The notes beneath the pieces are model-generated. The model saw nothing but the letters and a program-made list of their open reading frames with translations. It searched no databases and had not been told where the DNA came from. DNA of 64,000 nt. Origin: Chryseobacterium paludis. Lineage in GTDB: Bacteria > Bacteroidota > Bacteroidia > Flavobacteriales > Weeksellaceae. Below are positions 72-44,636 of the stretch, in pieces (the stretch's first letter is position 1; each line of letters begins with the position of its first letter). Position numbers and translations under genes: made by a program. The DNA is taken from the NCBI RefSeq assembly GCF_025403485.1, contig NZ_CP099966.1, positions 4,986,392 to 5,050,391 on the forward strand. The letters are read 5' to 3'.

Positions 72-833
72 TTAATTCTTTATTGAATTTATAAAATCTA
101 TGGCATTGATCTTCCAATCTTTATTTTGCAATAATATATTCACGAAAGCAGTTCCTATAATTCCACCATCCGCTTTTTCGGTTACGTTTTCAAAATCTTC
201 TTTAGATTTTATTCCAAAGCCAATCATCACCGGATTTTTAAGCGGAAGAGAGGCTATCCTGGAAAGATAGTCTTCATTTTTCAAAACAGCATTTTTATTT
301 CCTGTTGTAGATGAGGAACTTACAGCATATAAAAATCCTGAACTTAGAGAATCCAAATATAAAATCCTTTCATCCGAAGTTTCAGGGGTGATTAAAAATG
401 TAAAATTGAGATCATACTTCTTAAGGATTTGCTGATAGTTTTTCTCGAATTCAATAGGAGGAAGGTCGGGAATAATTAAGCCTGAAACTCCACTTTCCGA
501 ACATTCTTTGCAGAAATTTTCGAAACCAAAACTTAAAACAGGATTAATGTAACCCATTAAAATAATCGGAATTTTGATCTCATTTTTAATGGATTTCAGT
601 TGTGAAAGTAGTTTTTTAATCGTCATGCCATTTTCCAGGGCCAGTTCATGGGCTTTCTGAATAACTGGCCCATCAGCGACAGGATCAGAATAAGGCATTC
701 CGATTTCCATCATATCCGCTCCGGAATCCTGTATTAATTTTATAATATCAGCAGTATCTTCCAGTTGTGGAATCCCCGCCGTGAAGTATATGTTGAGTTT
801 TTTCATAGAGTTAAATTGTATTGATGTATTCAT
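72..833 (-). CDS. trpA: Tryptophan synthase alpha subunit
   Basis: Cleaves indole-3-glycerol phosphate to indole and glyceraldehyde 3-phosphate and passes indole to TrpB; last step pair of tryptophan synthesis in the cytoplasm. The TIM-barrel protein shows the catalytic Glu/Asp region MEIGMPYSDPVADGPVIQ (about residues 42-59), then ITPETSDERI and the phosphate-binding region AVSSSSTTGNK. 253 residues is slightly short of the E. coli length but complete. The ATG at 833 gives nine extra residues; an ATG at 806 (MKKLNIYFTAG) matches the usual family N-terminus and may be the true start. It is the last gene of the trp operon, 106 bases after trpB. No terminator is visible in the 71 bases that follow. 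Confidence 0.96.
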   Translation of the reverse strand: MNTSIQFNSMKKLNIYFTAGIPQLEDTADIIKLIQDSGADMMEIGMPYSDPVADGPVIQKAHELALENGMTIKKLLSQLKSIKNEIKIPIILMGYINPVLSFGFENFCKECSESGVSGLIIPDLPPIEFEKNYQQILKKYDLNFTFLITPETSDERILYLDSLSSGFLYAVSSSSTTGNKNAVLKNEDYLSRIASLPLKNPVMIGFGIKSKEDFENVTEKADGGIIGTAFVNILLQNKDWKINAIDFINSIKN

Positions 834-939
834 GTATAATATATTGATGATATCTCCAGTGAATTATCATCTTAAATTAAAGAAGCATGATTTTCTTTGG
901 CAACTTTCAAAATCATTTTACATAAATACTTTTTACAGA

Positions 940-2118
940 TTAAAGATTAGCTAAGTACGTTTCCATATCCTTGTCACCACGTCCGCTTAAACAGATGACA
1001 ACAATATCATTTTCATTGAATTTCTTTTTATCTAAAACTGCCAGAGCGTGAGAGCTTTCCAATGCAGGAATGATACCCTCTAGTTTGGTCAGTTCAAAAG
1101 CACATTTTAAGGCTTCATCATCATTGATGCTGAAAAATTCAGCACGCTTTTCTTTAAATAAATGAGCATGAAACGGTCCGATTCCCGGATAATCTAAACC
1201 TGCAGAAATAGAGTGGGGCTCAATTACCTGCCCGTCATTCGTCTGCATAACAAGACTTTTACTGCCGTGTAAAACACCTAAAGTTCCAAGAAAAGTAGTA
1301 GCAGCTGATTTCCCTGATTCTACGCCGAAACCACCTGCTTCTGCGGCAATAATTTTTACACTTTCTTCTTCTACAAAATGATAGAAAGTTCCTGCGGCAT
1401 TGCTTCCACCACCCACACAGGCGATGACATAATCAGGGTTCTCTCTTCCGATCTGTTCCTTAAGCTGTTCCCTGATCTCTTTTGAAATAATACTTTGAAA
1501 TCTGGCAACAAGATCAGGAAAAGGATGCGGTCCTACCACACTTCCAATCACATAGTGGGTGGTTACCGGGTGGTTGATCCAATCCCTTAAGGCTTCATTA
1601 ACGGCATCTTTTAATGTCTTTGATCCTGAAGTTGCAGGAATCACTTCTGCACCCAACATTTTCATTCTTGCTACATTGGGAGCCTGTCTTTGAATATCTA
1701 CTTCACCCATATAAACGATGCATTCCAACCCAAGCAAAGCACAGGCTGTAGCTGTGGCAACACCATGTTGTCCAGCACCGGTTTCAGCAATGATCCTGGT
1801 TTTTCCAAGACGTTTTGCCAATAGTACCTGACCAAGTGCATTGTTGATTTTGTGTGCTCCTGTGTGATTGAGATCTTCTCTTTTTAAATAAATGTTCGTA
1901 TTGTATTTATTACTTAAATTCTTCGCAAAATAAAGTGGAGTAGCTCGTCCTACATAGTTTTTTAGTAAATCCTGATATTCTTTCTGAAATTCTTCAGATT
2001 CGATGATTTCAAGATAGTTTTTTTGGAGCTCTTCTACATTGGGGTAAAGCATTTCAGGAATGAAAGCCCCTCCGAATTCTCCATAATATCCATTCTTATC
2101 CGGGTTTTTATAATTCAT
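940..2118 (-). CDS. trpB: Tryptophan synthase beta subunit
   Basis: PLP enzyme that condenses indole with serine to make tryptophan, working as an alpha2-beta2 complex with TrpA. The PLP-lysine motif [13 protein letters not shown] lies near residue 90, followed by [10 protein letters not shown], the phosphate-binding glycine-rich GGGSNA and a C-terminal GRGDKD. The length of 392 residues is normal for TrpB1. It lies in the trp operon between the unknown 171-residue gene (167-base gap) and trpA. No key residue is missing. Confidence 0.97.
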
Positions 2119-2129
2119 TTTCTTTATTG

Positions 2130-2252
2130 TTATTGTATTAAATAATCGGGATCCGTTGAATCAAGCTGTTTGAGCAGGTTTTTATTTTCTTCAGATAAGT
2201 GAATAATTGAGATATCATTTTCTTTTCCCAAAGCTCTATGGGTCTTTTTATT
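2130..2252 (-). pseudogene. Possible decayed coding remnant in the trp operon
   Basis: The 167-base gap before trpB is unusually long for this operon. On the minus strand one frame is open for about 40 codons and reads like real protein (ALGKENDISIIHLSEENK, then a C-terminal [10 protein letters not shown] and stop), but it has no start codon. The bases just upstream continue in another frame (LADFKIK) across an A-run, as expected after an indel. I cannot name a parent family. It could equally be a chance open stretch, so this is a weak call. Confidence 0.3.
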
Positions 2253-2285
2253 TTAAAGTCTGCCAGCTATTCTGTCTTTTTAATA

Positions 2286-2801
2286 TTATAAATCATTGTT
2301 TACATTATTGATAAATGACAGATTATGATCAAACTGTTGTCTGGTGATCTGCTTGTTCATATATAAAAATTTTATTTTACTCGCTATACTGATTAAAGTT
2401 TCCATATCAAGTTTTGAGTGATACATTTTAAATATCAGTTCCAGATTGTCCAGTAAATAATAAGAGTCTAATTTTTCATATGATAGGAAGATCTTAAAGT
2501 ATATTTTCCCCAAATCATAGTTAACATTGGTTCTAACCGTGTTTTCCATAAGTTTGTCTGCGATCATCACCAGATGATATCCATCCCATAAATGAATGGT
2601 TTTAAAAAAATATTGAATGTCCAGTTCATCAAAATCTTTAATGATATCAATAAATTGGGATAATAAACCTCCCATTTCCCAGAAGTCCGTTGTACTATCA
2701 TTTTCGGATATAAATTGATAAAGTTTTTTTACATTTTTATTATCAAACCTTGGTGGAAACAATACCTGATAAAACTGTTTTTTTAATGATTTTATATTCA
2801 T
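2286..2801 (-). CDS. Unknown protein encoded inside the trp operon
   Basis: A 171-residue protein that I do not recognise. It has no signal peptide or clear membrane segment; it is rich in Asp, Leu, Phe and Tyr, looks largely alpha-helical, and carries the motif DFWEMGGLLSQFIDIIKDFD near residue 40. Its ATG overlaps the TGA of trpF (ATGA), so it is translationally coupled and must be co-transcribed with the trp genes. The 3' side is followed by a 167-base gap holding possible gene debris. A role linked to tryptophan synthesis is only inferred from position; it may be a passenger. Confidence 0.8.
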   Translation of the reverse strand: MNIKSLKKQFYQVLFPPRFDNKNVKKLYQFISENDSTTDFWEMGGLLSQFIDIIKDFDELDIQYFFKTIHLWDGYHLVMIADKLMENTVRTNVNYDLGKIYFKIFLSYEKLDSYYLLDNLELIFKMYHSKLDMETLISIASKIKFLYMNKQITRQQFDHNLSFINNVNNDL

Positions 2802-3454
2802 AGGTTTGAGTTTAATAGGTTAGACTTAAATAAACGTACTTTTTCCAAATCCTTAATTCCTGGTGTGATCTCAAATTTTGAATTGATATCCAGAGCAAAA
2901 GGCCTTTGATTCAGGATTTTTACGTTATCAATATTTTCTTCTGAGATCCCTCCACTTAAGAAATAGGGGATTTTTATTTCCAATTCATTCAATAATGACC
3001 AGTCAAATTGCTTTCCTGTTCCTCCAAATGACTGACTGTCTGTATCAAACAAAATGTAGTCCACATCGAATTGTAAATGTTTAATTGTAGACTTCAGCTC
3101 TTCTATTGTGTTGGCTATTCTAAATACTTTTATAATCTTAGTAGCAGGGTTTAGCTTTTTTCTTAATTCCGAAATATAATGCAGGCTTTCGTCACCATGA
3201 AGCTGAATGAAATTCAGATCAGCCTGTTTCGCAATTTCTAATATAATATCTGGTTCCGCATTTACAAAAACACCTACTTTTCCCTCATGAATAATTTTCG
3301 AAATATCTTTTAAACTTAAACGATTAAGTGCATATCTGGGTGATTTTTTATAGAATATAAATCCAAGGAAGTCAATATTCATAGAAATTAATTCGTGAAT
3401 TTGATCGAGTTCTGATAAACCGCAAACTTTTATATGTAAGTTGTTGTCTGTCAT
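2798..3454 (-). CDS. trpF: Phosphoribosylanthranilate isomerase
   Basis: Catalyses the Amadori rearrangement of phosphoribosylanthranilate to CdRP, the third step of the tryptophan branch. The N-terminal KVCGL holds the catalytic Cys; GVFVNA, the IQLHGDES strand, the catalytic Asp in LFDTDSQSFGGTG and the phosphate-binding FLSGGISEENI follow in family order. 218 residues is near the normal size. The start codon overlaps the trpC stop by one base (TAATG) and the 3' end overlaps the next gene by four, showing tight coupling. Confidence 0.95.
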   Translation of the reverse strand: MTDNNLHIKVCGLSELDQIHELISMNIDFLGFIFYKKSPRYALNRLSLKDISKIIHEGKVGVFVNAEPDIILEIAKQADLNFIQLHGDESLHYISELRKKLNPATKIIKVFRIANTIEELKSTIKHLQFDVDYILFDTDSQSFGGTGKQFDWSLLNELEIKIPYFLSGGISEENIDNVKILNQRPFALDINSKFEITPGIKDLEKVRLFKSNLLNSNL

Positions 3455-4233
3455 TATACAGCTACATTATCGATAAATTCCTCAAATGCCTTCGCAGGAT
3501 TTTCATTCTTCATAAAATATTCACCCATCAAAAATCCATCAAAACCCTTTTCTTTCAAATAATGAAAATCTTCAATATGATAAATTCCACTTTCTGCAAC
3601 AGATAAGACTTCCTTTGGTAGCTGATTTTTCAATTTAACAGAATGTTGTAGGTCAACTTTAAAATCTTTTAAATTCCTGTTATTTACTCCCACCAAATCA
3701 ATGGCAGAGTGGTAGTGCTTCAGTTCTTCTTCAGTATGGATTTCCAGTAGAACCTCCAATCCGAGCTTATGAGATAAATCTGTGAATTCCAAAACCTGCG
3801 CAGGAGAAAGACAAGCAGCAATTAATAGGATTACATCAGCACCCATATTTTTCGCTTCATAGAACTGGTATTCGTCGATCATAAAGTCTTTTCTAAGAAT
3901 AGGAACTGCAATATGATCCCGAACACTAAGGATATCTTCGAAACTCCCCCCAAAAAAATCGCTATCTGTCAGAATAGAAATTCCGCTTGCTCCAAAATTT
4001 TCATACGCAGAAACAACCTCTAAAGGAGAAACCTTGTTGTTGATAATTCCTTTTGATGGTGACTGTCTTTTAAATTCGGCAATAATTCCGCTTTTTTCTT
4101 TTAGCGACGTTTTTAAAGATTTGGTTTGTCTTCCAAAAAAAACAGAATCTTTTAATTCTTCAATGGAAATACTTGCCTTTGAAAAAGCAACCTCTTCCTT
4201 TTTTTTCGATATAATTTTATCTAATATGGTCAT
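3454..4233 (-). CDS. trpC: Indole-3-glycerol phosphate synthase
   Basis: Closes the indole ring by decarboxylating cyclisation of CdRP. Motifs in order are the catalytic Lys region IIAEFKRQSPSKG (about residue 50), LRKDFMIDEYQ, LLEIHTEEEL, VGVNNRNLKDFKVD and VAESGI. At 259 residues this is a free-standing enzyme, not the TrpC-TrpF fusion found in enterobacteria. Within the trp operon it sits 52 bases after trpD and overlaps trpF by one base. Confidence 0.97.
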   Translation of the reverse strand: MTILDKIISKKKEEVAFSKASISIEELKDSVFFGRQTKSLKTSLKEKSGIIAEFKRQSPSKGIINNKVSPLEVVSAYENFGASGISILTDSDFFGGSFEDILSVRDHIAVPILRKDFMIDEYQFYEAKNMGADVILLIAACLSPAQVLEFTDLSHKLGLEVLLEIHTEEELKHYHSAIDLVGVNNRNLKDFKVDLQHSVKLKNQLPKEVLSVAESGIYHIEDFHYLKEKGFDGFLMGEYFMKNENPAKAFEEFIDNVAV

Positions 4234-4285
4234 TTAATGTGTGTTTTTTTATGCTTTTATTTCAATCAAATCTTATCCATTGTTA

Positions 4286-5314
4286 TTATTCCAGTAATAG
4301 TTCCATACTTCTCAAAGCTCTACCACTTTGTAAACTTTCCTGAGCCAATAAAAGGCAATCATCATAACTCCCGAATTTTTCGGTATGATAAAGCGCAATG
4401 GAAGCATTTGCCAAAACCACAGAGTTTTGTGATTCTGTTCCCTTACCTTCTAAAATGTTTCTGAAAATAGTTGCCGCTTCCTGAATTGTTTTACCTGCCT
4501 GTATGCTTTCTGGAGTTACCGGATCAAATCCAAGATCTTCCGCTGAATAAATATTCTCACCTTTTTTGGTAATAATTTTACTGTCATGGGTTAAGCTTAT
4601 TTCATCATAACCATCCAGACCATGAACAAGAATAAACTCCTGGGAATCTTTTTGTAATAGATATTGATAAATCCTTGCAATCTCCAGATTATAAACTCCG
4701 ATCACGGAAAATTTTGGTTTAGCAGGATTTACCAACGGACCTAATAAATTAAAAAATGTTCTTAACCCTAGCGATTTTCGTAATGCACCAACAGATTGAA
4801 GGGCAGGATGAAAGTAGGGAGCATGTAAAAAGCAGATATTGGCTTTTTCAAGATCACGGCTTAGCTTTTCAGAGTCATTATTCATTTGATAACCGAGCTC
4901 TTCTAAAACATTGGAAGAACCTGTAACTGCTGAAGCTCCATAATTTCCATGTTTAGTTACTTTTTGCCCGGCTCCGGCAATAACAAAACTTGCCAATGTT
5001 GAAATATTAATAGTGTTTTTCCCATCACCTCCGGTTCCAACAATATCTATAGCATCACTGGCATCTATATTTACAGGAACAGCCATTTGTAACAATGCTT
5101 CTCTAAAGCCTTCCAATTCTCTCAACGTAATATTACGCATAAGGAAAACACTAATAAAGGCAGTGACCTCCGTTGTGTTAAACTTATTTTGAGCAATTTC
5201 AATCATGATAGCCTTAGCTTCAGATTTTGATAAGGTATGATGATTAAACAAATATTGCAAAATTTCTTTCATTTGTGGTGTTTTTATGGTTGAGGTGCTT
5301 TCTAATGTTTTCAA
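4286..5314 (-). CDS. trpD: Anthranilate phosphoribosyltransferase
   Basis: Transfers phosphoribose from PRPP to anthranilate. The glycine-rich PRPP-binding loop DIVGTGGDGKNTINIST is near residue 88, followed by KHGNYGASAVTGSSNVLEELG, both diagnostic. The length of 342 residues is standard and there is no fused TrpG domain. The ATG overlaps the trpG stop by four bases. All expected substrate-binding motifs are intact. Confidence 0.97.
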   Translation of the reverse strand: MKTLESTSTIKTPQMKEILQYLFNHHTLSKSEAKAIMIEIAQNKFNTTEVTAFISVFLMRNITLRELEGFREALLQMAVPVNIDASDAIDIVGTGGDGKNTINISTLASFVIAGAGQKVTKHGNYGASAVTGSSNVLEELGYQMNNDSEKLSRDLEKANICFLHAPYFHPALQSVGALRKSLGLRTFFNLLGPLVNPAKPKFSVIGVYNLEIARIYQYLLQKDSQEFILVHGLDGYDEISLTHDSKIITKKGENIYSAEDLGFDPVTPESIQAGKTIQEAATIFRNILEGKGTESQNSVVLANASIALYHTEKFGSYDDCLLLAQESLQSGRALRSMELLLE

Positions 5315-5925
5315 TGTAAAAGGAAGTTTTTAATGATTACTTCTCCATCAGGAGTTAAAATACTTTCAGGATGAAACTGTACACCATGTACATCATAGGT
5401 TTTATGCTGCAAGGCCATAATCATTCCATCTTTATCAACAGCTGTTATTTCCAGTTCTTCAGGAAATTGGTCGGGATCTACAGCCCAACTGTGATATCTT
5501 CCTACCTCAAGTCCTGAAGATAAATTTTGAAAGAGTTTTGTTTTATCTTTTGTCAGTTCAGCCGTCGTGGCTACGCCATGAAAAATTTCAGAAAGATTAA
5601 TTAGCTTTCCACCAAAAGCCTCGGCAATAGCTTGCTGCCCAAGGCAAACTCCCAGAATACTTTTTGTGGAGGCATATTTTCTGATTAAATCCAATAAAAT
5701 CCCTGATTCTTCAGGAATTCCCGGACCGGGTGACAGAATGATTTTATCATATTTGTCAATATCTTCTAAACTTATTTCATCGTTTCTGAAGACATCTACT
5801 TTTTGATCCAGAATTTTTTCAATAATCTGTACAAGATTATAGGTAAAGCTATCATAATTATCAAAAACTAAAACTTTAGCTGTTGATTGACCTTCTATAT
5901 TTTTATTCATCTCTTTATTTATCAT
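5311..5925 (-). CDS. trpG: Anthranilate synthase glutaminase component
   Basis: Class I glutamine amidotransferase that supplies ammonia to TrpE. After a short leader the protein begins VLVFDNYDSFTYNLVQ; LSPGPGIPEESG, the nucleophile motif GVCLGQQAIAEAFGG and the His-Glu pair GVQFHPES complete the triad. Of 204 residues, the first 15-17 exceed the usual N-terminus, so ATG 5910 (MNKNIEG) is an alternative start. It may also serve para-aminobenzoate synthase, as in other bacteria with one copy; this window shows no evidence either way. Confidence 0.95.
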   Translation of the reverse strand: MINKEMNKNIEGQSTAKVLVFDNYDSFTYNLVQIIEKILDQKVDVFRNDEISLEDIDKYDKIILSPGPGIPEESGILLDLIRKYASTKSILGVCLGQQAIAEAFGGKLINLSEIFHGVATTAELTKDKTKLFQNLSSGLEVGRYHSWAVDPDQFPEELEITAVDKDGMIMALQHKTYDVHGVQFHPESILTPDGEVIIKNFLLH

Positions 5926-5974: not shown

Positions 5975-7396
5975 CTAATAATTTAGTTTGTCAGCTTTTT
6001 CTACTGCCTTTTTTAATGCATTTAGTTTATTATTAACTTCCTGTAATTCACTTTCAGGGTTTGATTTGGCTACTAATCCTGCTCCTGCCTGATAAAATAA
6101 CGTATTGTTTTTACTTAGAAAAGTTCGGATCATGATTGCCTGATTACAGGTTCCATTAAGTCCCACCATTCCAATGCAACCTCCGTAATAGCCACGGGAA
6201 TCTTTTTCATATTTATTGATCAGCTGAAGAGCTTTGTGCTTGGGTGCGCCACTTAGAGTTCCTTGTGGAAAGGTGGATGAAACAACCTCAAAAGGATTCG
6301 TATCTCTTGGTAATTCCGCTGTAACTTCACTTACCATATGGATAACGTGAGAAAAAAGCTGAATTTCTTTCAATTTGGTAACGGTAATATTTTTCCCCAT
6401 TTTCCCAAGATCATTTCTTGCCAGATCCACCAACATGGTATGTTCTGCGTTTTCTTTAGGATCATTTTTTAATTCCTCAATAGACTGCAGATCGATATCA
6501 AAGTTTCCGGTTCTTTTGAATGTTCCGGCAATAGGGTGGATGATCGCTTTATGATCTTTAATAATTAACTGGCTTTCGGGACTGGATCCAAATAATTTAT
6601 AGTCTCCATAATCGAAAAAGAATAAATAAGGAGAAGGATTGATATTTCTTAAAGCTCGATACACATTGAACTCATCACCCAGGAATTTTTGCTCAAACCT
6701 TCTGCTTAGTACCAATTGGAAAACGTCTCCTCGCATACAGTGTCTCTGAGCTGTTTTTACCAATTCAAGATATTCTTCATCAGTAATGTTTGAAGTTTCC
6801 GCCCCCGTTTTTTCGAAAGGATAGACTACTGAGCTTTTGTTCTTTATTAAATTTTCCAACGTATAAAGTTCAGATTTAACACCTTCAATTTGATTTTCAA
6901 TAAAATGCATCTCATCATTGTAATGATTAATAGCAATGACATATTGGTATAGTCTGTATCTGACTAAAGGAATTTCAACCTCTTCACTTTGTGCTTTAAA
7001 ATTGACATTCTCAAAAAACTGAACTGCTTCAAAACTGGTATATCCAAAAAGATTTTGTGCAGTTTCTTCAATAGGATCTGCTGTTTTCTCACAGTCGAAA
7101 ACTGAAGAAAAATCATGCAGAATATCTGCTATCTTATGATCGATGATGAATTGTTTTACAGGTTCTGAATTGGGAAGCTTTATTTCAAACTCTTTTAGAT
7201 TCTTTACCTCAATTCCAGCAATGGCATTTACTGCAATAAAAGAAAAATTATTATCGATATTTTTAGAATCTGAACTCTCCAAAAGAATGGTATCTCTAAA
7301 TTTATCTCTGATTTGTAGATAGATATTCATTGGAGTCTGGAGATCCCCCAATGTTTTTTTCGAAACTGTTTTTACTTTTATTTTTTTGTTAAACAT
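5975..7396 (-). CDS. trpE: Anthranilate synthase component I
   Basis: Converts chorismate to anthranilate using ammonia from TrpG; first committed step and usual target of feedback inhibition. The inhibitor-site LLES motif is near residue 39, and the chorismate-binding domain carries GTFKRTGN, LARNDLGKMG, SHVIHMVSEV, GTLSGAPKHKA and GGCIGMVGLNG. I choose ATG 7396 (473 residues). A longer frame opens at 7444, but that codon lies inside the attenuator terminator hairpin, so it would seldom be a real start. Expression is controlled by the leader peptide and attenuator just upstream. Confidence 0.95.
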   Translation of the reverse strand: MFNKKIKVKTVSKKTLGDLQTPMNIYLQIRDKFRDTILLESSDSKNIDNNFSFIAVNAIAGIEVKNLKEFEIKLPNSEPVKQFIIDHKIADILHDFSSVFDCEKTADPIEETAQNLFGYTSFEAVQFFENVNFKAQSEEVEIPLVRYRLYQYVIAINHYNDEMHFIENQIEGVKSELYTLENLIKNKSSVVYPFEKTGAETSNITDEEYLELVKTAQRHCMRGDVFQLVLSRRFEQKFLGDEFNVYRALRNINPSPYLFFFDYGDYKLFGSSPESQLIIKDHKAIIHPIAGTFKRTGNFDIDLQSIEELKNDPKENAEHTMLVDLARNDLGKMGKNITVTKLKEIQLFSHVIHMVSEVTAELPRDTNPFEVVSSTFPQGTLSGAPKHKALQLINKYEKDSRGYYGGCIGMVGLNGTCNQAIMIRTFLSKNNTLFYQAGAGLVAKSNPESELQEVNNKLNALKKAVEKADKLNY

Positions 7397-7428: not shown

Positions 7429-7463
7429 AAAAAAAAGACTTCAACGGAATCCGTCAAAGTCTT
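7429..7463 (-). terminator. trp attenuator terminator (3:4 hairpin)
   Basis: On the minus strand AAGACTT and ACGG pair with CCGT and AAGTCTT, joined by two G-T wobbles, giving a 13-bp stem with a three-base loop, followed at once by a run of eight T. It lies between the leader peptide and trpE and no gene ends here, so it is an attenuator. Its 5' arm (7450-7462) can pair instead with 7529-7540. Confidence 0.92.
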
Positions 7464-7506
7464 TGTATTTTGTTTTATCTTATTTTCTGTAAGCGTAGCT
7501 TAACAG

Positions 7507-7584
7507 TTAGCAACATGATAATAACTTCAGACCCGACGAAGAGTTTGAATGCCACCACCAAAAATTATTGCTCGTATTAAACAT
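7507..7584 (-). CDS. trpL: trp operon leader peptide with three Trp codons
   Basis: A 25-codon frame starting ATG at 7584 and ending TAA at 7507 contains FWWWH: three successive TGG codons at 7552-7560. Directly after them 7541-7549 can pair with 7526-7534 (hairpin 1:2), and 7529-7540 can pair with the 5' arm of the terminator (2:3). This is the arrangement of the enterobacterial trpL attenuator: stalling at the Trp codons frees segment 2 to block termination, while finishing the peptide places the ribosome over segment 2. The frame is too short for normal gene calling. The start lies only four bases from the -7 promoter box, so the mRNA may be leaderless. Confidence 0.9.
   Translation of the reverse strand: MFNTSNNFWWWHSNSSSGLKLLSCC
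7525..7551 (-). promoter_or_regulatory. trp attenuator segments 1 and 2 (anti-antiterminator hairpin)
   Basis: Minus-strand 7541-7549 (TTCAAACTC) pairs with 7526-7534 (GGGTCTGAA), eight of nine positions, with loop TTCGTC. The loop plus the first part of the 3' arm (7529-7540) is complementary to 7450-7462 with one bulged base, giving a 12-bp antiterminator. Segment 1 starts two bases after the last Trp codon, so a stalled ribosome would cover it. Confidence 0.85.
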
Positions 7585-7588
7585 GGCA

Positions 7589-7618
7589 CAAATGTAGATA
7601 ATTTTTTATTATCAAAAA
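7589..7618 (-). promoter_or_regulatory. Promoter of the trp operon
   Basis: On the minus strand TTTTTG (7613-7618), a 16-base spacer and TACATTTG (7589-7596) match the Bacteroidota -33/-7 promoter (TTG / TAnnTTTG). It is placed just upstream of the leader peptide and just after the end of the preceding gene at 7660. Confidence 0.75.
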
Positions 7619-7659: not shown

Positions 7660-8304
7660 CTATTTCAATTGTTTTAAATTATTCTTCAATTCTTCTAATT
7701 TTATGCTGTAATTTTTATCGTTATATACCTGTAAATAAGCCTCTAAAGCGGAAATGTATTCTTGTATAAATTCTTTATTGGTCGGATCTGCTTCATATTT
7801 AATTTTTGCAGTATTAATGGGAGCCTGCATTTCATATTGACGTAAGTTTTTACCTTCCTCAGATTCATTGTAAAGAATGACTATATTTTTCTCATAACCC
7901 GGAATGTATTTTACAGGAAAAGTCTTGTTTACTTGTGGGATACGAATGGCATTTTCAATAGGGTATATGGATGCTGAGGTGGTTGAAAAATTCGTAGTCG
8001 CATATTTTCCATCCTGTTTCTTTACAATGGCTTCATAATCATGGATATACTGATCATTTAAGGTAGAATTTGTTTCAACATCTGAAGTGATTATTGCTGT
8101 GCTTTCAATGCCGTATTTATTTAAAAACCATGCATTTAAAAACTGTCCTGCGAACCCATTTGCAATTGACAAAGGAATAATAGGAAGCAGCATCCACCAC
8201 TTTTTAGTAATAAATGACAGAAAACAGAAAAAAATAATAAGAAGTATCACAGTATAAAAACCATGATGGCTTGTGAAAAACAGAATTTTAGAAATAAAGA
8301 TCAT
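7660..8304 (-). CDS. Uncharacterised membrane protein
   Basis: A 214-residue protein I do not recognise. Two hydrophobic segments (about residues 15-33 and 37-57) form an N-terminal membrane hairpin; the rest is a soluble domain with VNKTFPVKYIPGYEKNIVI, which resembles the small extracytoplasmic beta domain of DUF3592-type proteins, and then a charged helical C-terminus. It stands alone upstream of the trp leader promoter. Function unknown; the DUF3592 resemblance is an impression, not an alignment. Confidence 0.8.
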   Translation of the reverse strand: MIFISKILFFTSHHGFYTVILLIIFFCFLSFITKKWWMLLPIIPLSIANGFAGQFLNAWFLNKYGIESTAIITSDVETNSTLNDQYIHDYEAIVKKQDGKYATTNFSTTSASIYPIENAIRIPQVNKTFPVKYIPGYEKNIVILYNESEEGKNLRQYEMQAPINTAKIKYEADPTNKEFIQEYISALEAYLQVYNDKNYSIKLEELKNNLKQLK

Positions 8305-43232: not shown

Positions 43233-44537
43233 TTAAAGATCAGAAAAGCTTTTGTCCTGATCACTCTCATATCTGCTATTCTTAGATTGTCCAATTCTTT
43301 GTTTGAGGTAGATACTATTTCGCCCGGATAATAAATAAGAAACGATACATGAAATTGCGATATAGATTCCGGACTCAGCTCCAAACAATTCTATACCCAT
43401 AAGCATACAGGCTAAAGGAGTATTCGTGGCGCCAGCAAAGACGGCTACAAACCCCATTCCCGCTAAAAGACCTACAGGAAGCGGTATAAATAATGATAAA
43501 GCACTTCCCAGAGTAGCGCCAATAAAGAATAAAGGTGTTACTTCACCACCTTTAAACCCGGCGGCTAGAGTGATGATGGTAAAAATCATTTTTAAAGCAA
43601 AATCATAAACCGGAAGTTGAGTATTAAATGATTCAACTATGGTAGGAATTCCTAAACCGATATATTTTGTGGTTCCAATTGCAAATAGGGCAATAGCAAC
43701 AATACTGCCACCTACGATAGGACGAAATGGAGGATATTTAATGTTTGATTTAAAAATAGTTCCGATCCAATGAATCATTTTACTAAACGTTGCAGCACAA
43801 ATTCCAAAAGCGATTCCCGCCAGAATACTATAGAGAATAGGCGAAAGTTCAAGTTTGGGAATAAGGTCAATATGATAGTGCGTATGTTTAGCCTGCCAGA
43901 GATTTGTGACCCAGTCTGCAAAAATAGCAGAAGTAAAAGCCGGAAAGATGGCATTATAGCGTATTCTTCCTATTAAAAAAACTTCCAAACCAAATAATGC
44001 TCCGGCTAAAGGAGTTCCAAAAACAGAACCGAAACCAGCAGCAATGGCAGAAATAATTAAGATCCTTCTTTCAGTTTTATCTAATCTAAAAGGTTTGCTG
44101 AGCTGATCTGCGATTGCCCCGGCCATTTGTATTGCCGTTCCTTCCCGACCAGCTGAACCTCCGAAAAAATGAGTGACTATTGTTCCAAGGTATACAAAAG
44201 GAGCCATTTTGAAAGGAATGGTTTCTTTGGGATCATGAATAGTGTCAATCAGTAAATTATTACCTGCTTCAACATTCTGTCCAAAGTAATGATATAGTAA
44301 GCCTATTAAAAATCCTGCAACAGGCAGAAAAGCAATGATCCAAATATGATTTTCCCGAAAATCTGTAGCCCATTCCAACGACTTTAGAAAACCTGCAGAT
44401 GCACTTCCCGCAGCAGCTCCGATAATAATACTGATGCAAAGCCATTTTAATATATAAGGAATTGCAGGAAATTTCCTAAAGAAAAACCTTGAGTGAAATC
44501 GTACTTTTCTGTTTACTGTTCGTGAATTTTTAGACAT
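43233..44537 (-). CDS. CLC-type channel/antiporter, probable fluoride exporter (CLC-F)
   Basis: A 434-residue CLC protein with about ten membrane helices. Instead of the chloride filter GSGIP the first filter region reads EAGNNLLIDTIH, and the gating segment is GGSAGREGTAIQMAG; both suit the fluoride/proton CLC-F clade rather than chloride CLCs. FGSVFGTPLAGALFGLEV and GATNTPLACMLMGIELFG are further family motifs. A fluoride riboswitch precedes the start, which strongly supports fluoride export as the role. It acts in the inner membrane as a resistance determinant. Confidence 0.9.
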   Translation of the reverse strand: MSKNSRTVNRKVRFHSRFFFRKFPAIPYILKWLCISIIIGAAAGSASAGFLKSLEWATDFRENHIWIIAFLPVAGFLIGLLYHYFGQNVEAGNNLLIDTIHDPKETIPFKMAPFVYLGTIVTHFFGGSAGREGTAIQMAGAIADQLSKPFRLDKTERRILIISAIAAGFGSVFGTPLAGALFGLEVFLIGRIRYNAIFPAFTSAIFADWVTNLWQAKHTHYHIDLIPKLELSPILYSILAGIAFGICAATFSKMIHWIGTIFKSNIKYPPFRPIVGGSIVAIALFAIGTTKYIGLGIPTIVESFNTQLPVYDFALKMIFTIITLAAGFKGGEVTPLFFIGATLGSALSLFIPLPVGLLAGMGFVAVFAGATNTPLACMLMGIELFGAESGIYIAISCIVSYLLSGRNSIYLKQRIGQSKNSRYESDQDKSFSDL

Positions 44538-44543
44538 AATAAT

Positions 44544-44578
44544 CCTGATTAATTACGGTTGATAATCTATTAATCAGG
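44544..44578 (-). promoter_or_regulatory. Switch hairpin of the fluoride riboswitch
   Basis: On the minus strand CCTGATTAAT (44569-44578) pairs perfectly with ATTAATCAGG (44544-44553), 10 bp, just before the start codon at 44537. The 5' arm shares its first bases with the aptamer pseudoknot strand (ACGCC), and the 3' arm contains the only AGGA-like ribosome site. The two foldings are mutually exclusive, suggesting translational control. Confidence 0.7.
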
Positions 44579-44630
44579 CGTCATCAGCTTTTGTAAAGCG
44601 GTTGGGTAAGGAAGAACACCATTTCCTTTT
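44571..44630 (-). promoter_or_regulatory. Fluoride riboswitch (crcB motif)
   Basis: The minus strand contains the crcB-motif pattern: GGAAATGGTGTTC, UUCC closing the first stem, AACCGC, a GCTTT/AAAGC hairpin and GCTGATGACGCC. The pseudoknot GGTGT with ACGCC can form. These are the conserved blocks of the fluoride aptamer. It lies between a -7 promoter box and the CLC-F gene. Confidence 0.92.
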
Positions 44631-44636
44631 CGGTTA

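Follow-up and report, generated by a model that had tools for sequence, protein, structure and literature searches.

The 64,000-nt stretch of Chryseobacterium paludis DNA analyzed here (the window) very likely carries a ribosome-mediated transcription attenuator of the trp operon on its minus strand, directly ahead of trpE. Three adjacent tryptophan codons in a short leader ORF are followed by RNA segments that pair as helix 1:2, antiterminator 2:3 and terminator 3:4. A sequence-only reading had likened this region to the enterobacterial trpL attenuator, and the TGG run and the covarying helices support that proposal.

Genomic context of the leader

The leader precedes an operon with the order trpE-trpG-trpD-trpC-trpF-(171-aa ORF)-trpB-trpA, all on one strand. 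The gene for anthranilate synthase component I, trpE (5975–7396, minus strand), heads the operon, and the remaining genes, named from their best NCBIfam matches, occupy positions 72–5925 (minus strand). TrpE matched TIGR00564 best, at 403.3 bits against a cut-off of 517.7, and the top NCBIfam match of the trpF product was also under its cut-off, so both names rest on best match and operon context. Within the named collection, TrpE came closest to that of C. paridis, with a best-segment identity of 96%. We note that the 171-aa ORF between trpF and trpB (2286–2801, minus strand) had no NCBIfam match. By eye, no leader of its own was seen for ilvD, which lies directly behind another coding frame.

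Conservation of the leader ORF

The leader ORF (7507–7584, minus strand) consists of 25 codons and a TAA, with its ATG at 7584 and its stop codon at 7509-7507. It encodes MFNTSNNFWWWHSNSSSGLKLLSCC, a peptide of 25 residues including WWW, and the three adjacent TGG codons lie at 7560-7552, as the sequence-only reading had described. The motif TGGTGGTGG occurs three times in the window compared with 0.09 expected from shuffle controls; the other two copies fall in long open frames, where they are read as Gly.

Of the 81 rows formed by the window and 80 close loci, 80 have a leader ORF complete with its start; the exception (L034) runs off a contig end. Codon and ORF-hairpin counts omitted four of these rows (L079–L082), leaving 77. 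Across these 77 Chryseobacterium rows, the codons TCA AAC TCT TCG TCG GGT CTG were fixed, save for one TCC. Since Ser has six codons, constraint on the peptide alone would not freeze these seven core codons.

Leaders with tandem tryptophan codons extend well beyond the genus. Among 40 regions sampled from the family outside Chryseobacterium, 39 had a WW leader upstream of trpE (none in L142), as did 19 of the 20 sampled from the order's other families (none in L185), which makes 58 of 60 for the order beyond the genus. In other families of the class, a WW leader was present in 19 of 20 regions, and other classes of the phylum had a TGGTGG leader in 14 of 20. All these regions were hand-picked for spread: 40 of the 115 other-genus genomes of the family with a match, 20 of 105 at the order level, 20 of 26 at the class level, and 20 of 155 at the phylum level. 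In one member of the class set (L228), the WW leader lies 1.4 kb upstream of trpE, before an apparent trpB. In L185, from a 0.6-Mb genome (G297), a promoter-like box and a hairpin with a T run seem by eye to be left 5' of trpE, possibly as the relic of an attenuator in a reduced genome. In L143 (G065), the trp leader is closely preceded, on its own strand, by a 5S rRNA and the 3' end of a 23S rRNA.

This distribution bears on the idea that the hairpin is a plain terminator of the upstream gene preceded by a chance ORF. The upstream neighbor, a 214-aa ORF ending at 7660, is on the same strand as the leader and could in principle use such a terminator. However, a promoter box sits between that ORF and the leader, and the WW leaders recur across the order, which makes this idea barely credible.

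Three helices and their covariation

Helix 1:2 (7526–7549, minus strand) pairs 7549-7541 with 7534-7526 through eight pairs and one A·C mismatch. Antiterminator 2:3 joins segment 2 (7529–7540, minus strand), its 5' side, to segment 3 (7450–7462, minus strand), its 3' side, as 7540-7529 with 7462-7450, with 12 pairs and one bulged U. Segment 3 is also most of the 5' arm of the intrinsic terminator 3:4 (7429–7464, minus strand), in which 7464-7451 pairs with 7447-7434 around a 3-nt loop; three T of the T run (7436-7429) are inside the stem. Helix 1:2 and the 12-bp antiterminator were found where the sequence-only reading had placed them, and so was its terminator with a T run before trpE, although the stem has 14 pairs, not the 13 given there.

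The terminator and helix 2:3 stand out from controls. The window contains one terminator-like site, compared with 0.1 in shuffles, and when the peptide was recoded at random with synonymous codons, only 58 of 5000 variants reached the energy of native helix 2:3 (−11.6 kcal/mol). In the close, family and order sets, 137 of 141 rows have a hairpin with at least five T after the TGG run, and two of the four rows lacking it pass with four T. Terminator-like hairpins were likewise present in 17 of 19 leaders of the class set, that of L215 being weak (−4.8 kcal/mol), and in 13 of 14 from other classes of the phylum.

We measured covariation on an alignment of 57 rows (A1), comprising the window, 27 of the 80 close loci as representatives, and 29 of the 40 other-genus family rows; the 11 rows left out were L141, L142 and L143–L151. 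In A1, 93.6% of cells were paired for helix 1:2, 92.0% for helix 2:3 and 95.3% for helix 3:4, compared with at most 56.8%, 52.4% and 54.8%, respectively, for slid versions. Changes on both sides of a pair affected four of the eight pairs of helix 1:2 (24 such cells, 5.5 in shuffles), five of the 12 pairs of helix 2:3 (29 cells, 8.8 in shuffles) and six of the 14 pairs of helix 3:4 (37 cells, 12.6 in shuffles). The number of double-change pairs was not above shuffles for helices 1:2 and 2:3, where 178 and 241 of 500 shuffles, respectively, reached the native count, but the remaining four measures did exceed shuffles for both. For helix 3:4, none of 500 shuffles reached the native count.

Swap tests gave further evidence for helix 2:3. 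When segment 3 was permuted among 73 representatives, a comparison that is free of alignment but includes kinship, none of 20,000 permutations reached the native total for helix 2:3. The same was true of 5000 permutations among 22 representatives of other genera in the family. Within Chryseobacterium, 2285 of 5000 permutations did so, but segments 2 and 3 are nearly invariant there, so the test within the genus is uninformative. The sequence-only reading had asked for conservation of the TGG run and covariation of the three stems among relatives; the three TGG codons are kept in 81 of 81 rows, and covariation was found in each of the three helices.

We also considered control of trpE translation by occlusion of its start, instead of control by termination. 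The trpE start lies 32 nt past the T run of the terminator, in principle within reach of the leader structure. However, the structure that covaries is a terminator, and the hairpin with its T run follows the TGG codons in nearly all rows, so we regard translational control as very unlikely.

A hairpin across the leader ORF

Helix 1:2 is only the tip of a hairpin that spans most of the ORF (7509–7572, minus strand), which the sequence-only reading had missed. The outer stem pairs 7572-7566 with 7515-7509, and a second stem, here called the Trp-codon stem, pairs 7560-7551 with 7525-7516. In the fold of the untranslated leader, the tryptophan codons thus pair with codons near the ORF end, and the two Cys codons, together with the initial base of the stop codon, pair with codons in the 5' part of the ORF. 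Folding gave a z-score of −5.03, with none of 200 shuffles as stable, and the stability of the ORF's own fold was reached by 31 of 2000 random synonymous recodings.

Pair counts over the 77 rows were high for both stems. The outer stem was paired in 95.2% of cells, above the mean (93.5%) and maximum (94.8%) of 1000 species shuffles. The Trp-codon stem was paired in 91.6% of cells, almost no gain over the species-shuffle mean of 91.4%; this stem cannot covary because its UGG side never varies. Slid controls paired at most 75.5% (Trp-codon stem) and 70.3% (outer stem) of cells, and slides by 3 still paired 61–76% because the codon runs are repetitive. By parsimony, one outer pair changed from G-C to A-U six times and to G·U five times, though the double-change outer pair is unpaired in 11 of 77 rows, and one of the ten pairs of the Trp-codon stem forms in just 52% of rows. 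RNAalifold, run on an ungapped ORF alignment of 53 distinct rows, recovered the tip hairpin and not the longer stems, which therefore rest on the window fold and the pair counts. Beyond the genus, the arms flanking the tryptophan codons coevolved too, with 0 of 5000 permutations reaching the native total for the 22 family representatives and 9 of 5000 for the 17 drawn from the order's other families; within Chryseobacterium, 143 of 5000 did so.

The hairpin also helps to interpret the end of the peptide. On the trpE tree, tail codons 13–16 (counting the first Trp as 0) had 29 synonymous and 13 non-synonymous changes, where 75% non-synonymous changes are expected under neutrality (p = 1.8e-9). 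Together with the precedent of peTrpL in Sinorhizobium meliloti (PMC7298713), this excess could indicate that the leader peptide acts in trans, with attenuation secondary or additional. However, the tail pairs with the tryptophan codons and codons of the 5' part of the ORF, and most variants keep these pairs. Selection at the peptide level on the tail LSCC, which looked strong, is largely explained by this RNA pairing. Moreover, the core codons hardly vary even at synonymous sites, and constraint on the peptide does not account for this. We therefore consider a role of the peptide in trans unlikely.

Proposed switch

Under the proposed mechanism, ribosomes would load at the 5' end of the RNA without a Shine-Dalgarno site. 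When tryptophanyl-tRNA is scarce, a ribosome would stall at the UGG run, opening the ORF hairpin and masking segment 1, and segments 2 and 3 could then pair before segment 4 exists. With helix 2:3 formed, no terminator would arise and trpE and the genes downstream would be transcribed. When tryptophanyl-tRNA is plentiful, the ribosome would reach the UAA, helix 1:2 would re-form behind it, and helix 3:4 would end transcription. If the leader is not translated, the long hairpin would hide segment 2 and the terminator should form as well.

Fold predictions for these states, made with general background values for the ribosome footprint, agree with antitermination only while the transcript is growing. 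For a transcript reaching up to segment 3, the predicted probability of helix 2:3 was 0.20 without a ribosome, with helix 1:2 at 0.76, and rose to 0.89 once a ribosome sat on the first, second or third UGG codon. In the full transcript without a ribosome, helices 1:2 and 3:4 had probabilities of 0.98 and 0.97, and helix 3:4 likewise had 0.97 with a ribosome at the UAA. Helix 3:4 was also at 0.97, and helix 2:3 at 0.00, when the full transcript was equilibrated with a ribosome on the tryptophan codons. Since the terminator wins in every equilibrated state of the full transcript, the switch must be kinetic, as is the enterobacterial one.

Searches for other regulators of trp genes were negative in this genome. 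TRAP (PF02081) and TrpR (Trp_repressor, PF01371) had zero matches, with positive results in the control genomes of B. subtilis and E. coli, respectively, and the T-box covariance model (RF00230) had zero matches at E ≤ 0.001. The absence of TRAP and T-box control claimed from the sequence alone thus agrees with the genome searches. These results also bear on whether the leader is instead a riboswitch that binds a ligand or protein (TRAP, T-box or a new aptamer), with incidental tryptophan codons. The very high conservation of the core inside Chryseobacterium would suit such an element. However, conservation falls on the pairing segments, and the TGG run stays while stem sequences vary, which together with the lack of matches makes a riboswitch extremely improbable. 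A fluoride riboswitch (RF01734, 51.6 bits) was found elsewhere in the window, at 44568–44635 (minus strand), directly upstream of a 434-aa ORF (43233–44537, minus strand) that looks by eye like a CLC-type anion channel.

Promoter box and predicted leaderless start

The promoter geometry was not seen in the sequence-only reading. A −7 box of the form TAnnTTTG (TACATTTG, 7589–7596, minus strand) lies just before the leader start, and a TTG at 7615-7613 (minus strand) is a candidate upstream promoter element. Of 80 leaders, 76 have the end of the box exactly 4 nt before their start, three have it at 5 nt and one at 2 nt, with the caveat that the script chose, among in-frame starts, the distance nearest 4, which favors tight spacing. 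Among the window's 62 ORFs of at least 100 aa, taken from their first ATG as a control, one had a box at 5 nt and none at 4 nt. In the 39 leaders of the family outside Chryseobacterium, the box was at 4–5 nt in 27 (8 at 4 nt, 19 at 5 nt) and at 6 nt or more in eight, and four had none. Of 19 leaders from other families of the order, 17 had a box at 5–20 nt (5 nt in four). The wider spacing in those families suggests that tight spacing is mainly a trait of the window's family, and the exact 4 nt one of Chryseobacterium.

In the promoter map of F. psychrophilum, the sigma-A box is at −12 to −5 (PMC9723704), which would put the first transcribed base here at 7584, the A of the leader ATG. Judged by this map from another genus, the leader mRNA is probably leaderless, starting at the A of AUG, and ribosomes would then load on its 5' end. 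Leaderless transcripts make up 5.5% of mapped mRNAs in F. psychrophilum (PMC9723704), and in S. meliloti a trp leader, trpL, is already known to be leaderless (PMC7298713). Flavobacterial mRNAs are largely without Shine-Dalgarno sites (PMC9723704), and the present leader opens a textbook mechanism to direct tests in a phylum with this property. The predicted leaderless geometry also raises the question of how attenuation keeps step with RNA polymerase when translation begins at a 5' end.

A second candidate leader-peptide attenuator lies upstream of hisG in the same genome (L252:1156–1282), where a short ORF, MKPNFLTLHHYYHHLC, begins at 1156 and is followed by a hairpin and T run at 1253–1282. 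By eye, its TAnnTTTG box is 18 nt before the ATG, so the hisG leader would not be leaderless. A structured 5' element at hisG has been reported in flavobacteria (PMC9723704).

Two antiterminator topologies

The partner of segment 2 differed between families. In the window's family, segment 2 coevolved with the 5' arm of the terminator (0 of 5000 permutations), whereas its coevolution with the terminator loop and 3' arm was not clear (450 of 5000). The pattern was reversed in the 17 representatives from the order's other families, with 0 of 5000 permutations for the loop and 3' arm versus 187 of 5000 for the 5' arm.

Pairing energies gave a similar picture when a margin of 2 kcal/mol was required and rows within it were called ambiguous. 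Close rows, including the window, favored the 5' arm in 69 of 81 cases, with 12 ambiguous, and the 29 other-genus rows of A1 did so in 24 cases, with two for the loop and 3' arm and three ambiguous. The nine rows L143–L151, from genera of the family with diverged terminators, favored the 5' arm in two cases and the loop and 3' arm in seven. In other families of the order, none of 18 rows favored the 5' arm, 14 favored the loop and 3' arm, and four were ambiguous. Both topologies occurred at the class level (16 rows: seven 5' arm, six loop and 3' arm, three ambiguous) and in other classes (13 rows: seven, five and one, respectively).

The window's own preference for the 5' arm depends on where the pieces are cut: the segment 2 region gave −11.9 (5' arm) versus −9.2 (loop and 3' arm) as separate pieces and −13.5 versus −13.7 when the second piece kept four bases of the 5' arm, while segment 2 proper gave −11.1 versus −6.7.

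Taking these patterns jointly, we tentatively suggest, while leaning somewhat toward doubt, a history in two parts. The trp leader of the family may have become leaderless, with an ORF that is nearly one hairpin and with 5'-end loading replacing the Shine-Dalgarno site as the device that times the first ribosome to RNA polymerase. At the same time, the orthologous attenuator may have switched between the 5'-arm and the loop and 3'-arm topologies more than once inside Bacteroidota, with leader and terminator kept.

Comparison with known systems

In the trpL leader of enterobacteria such as E. coli, a short leader ORF has tandem tryptophan codons in or next to segment 1, helix 1:2 is followed by an antiterminator 2:3 that uses the 5' arm of the terminator, and a terminator 3:4 with a T run precedes trpE, the first gene. 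The window shares the leader ORF, the tandem tryptophan codons, the three helices with the T run, and trpE in first place. It differs in having three UGG codons, a predicted leaderless start without a Shine-Dalgarno site, and a stop codon about 20 nt beyond segment 2. The hairpin arms in Chryseobacterium also reach nearly both ends of the ORF, and the genome, unlike those with enterobacterial trpL, has no TrpR match.

Within Bacteroidota, this kind of control is not new, as trp attenuators that work by a leader peptide are already recognized there. Bacteroid-trp (RF01692) appeared in 2010 among the candidate cis-regulatory RNAs of Bacteroidetes (Weinberg 2010, PMC2864571), and a 2019 paper placed it at the trp operon of F. 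psychrophilum and likened it to the E. coli leader (PMC6414381). A 2021 paper described strong clues for leader-peptide attenuation at amino-acid operons of F. psychrophilum, although its main text, in the parts cited here, does not mention trp by name (PMC9723704). Given these reports, the statement in the sequence-only reading that such architecture is much less studied in Bacteroidota was overstated. The matches listed from a title and abstract search, in which subscription journals are thinly covered, included no experimental study of a Chryseobacterium trp leader. What is new lies in the details: the box 4 nt from the leader start, the folding of nearly the whole ORF, and a topology that differs between families.

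Like Bacteroid-trp, the window's leader lies upstream of trpE in a member of Bacteroidota and has its TGG run inside a long hairpin. The Rfam model, however, stops in the 5' arm of the terminator and draws neither helix 2:3 nor helix 3:4. At its cut-off (49 bits), we found no match in the window or genome, nor at any of 20 other Chryseobacterium loci taken from the 80. The cut-off was reached by seven of 40 other-genus regions of the family (in four of 18 genera), by 11 of the 20 regions from the order's other families, and by 24 of 247 genomes in the phylum sample. The model thus misses all 21 Chryseobacterium sequences tested and 14 of the 18 other genera of the family that were sampled, and the antiterminator and terminator missing from it are now supplied. 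We consider the window's leader to be probably homologous to Bacteroid-trp, though outside its model.

F. psychrophilum belongs to the same order as the window, and the reports on it point to the same kind of control. In the rows sampled from other families of that order, the loop and 3' arm are mostly the best partner of segment 2, and the promoter box is 5–20 nt from the leader start compared with 4 nt here.

The S. meliloti trpL leader is similar in having an RNA that starts at the AUG, as predicted here, with tryptophan codons and attenuation of trpE (PMC7298713). In contrast, S. meliloti is from an unrelated phylum, its leader peptide has 14 aa, and roles in trans are known for both its leader RNA and its peptide.
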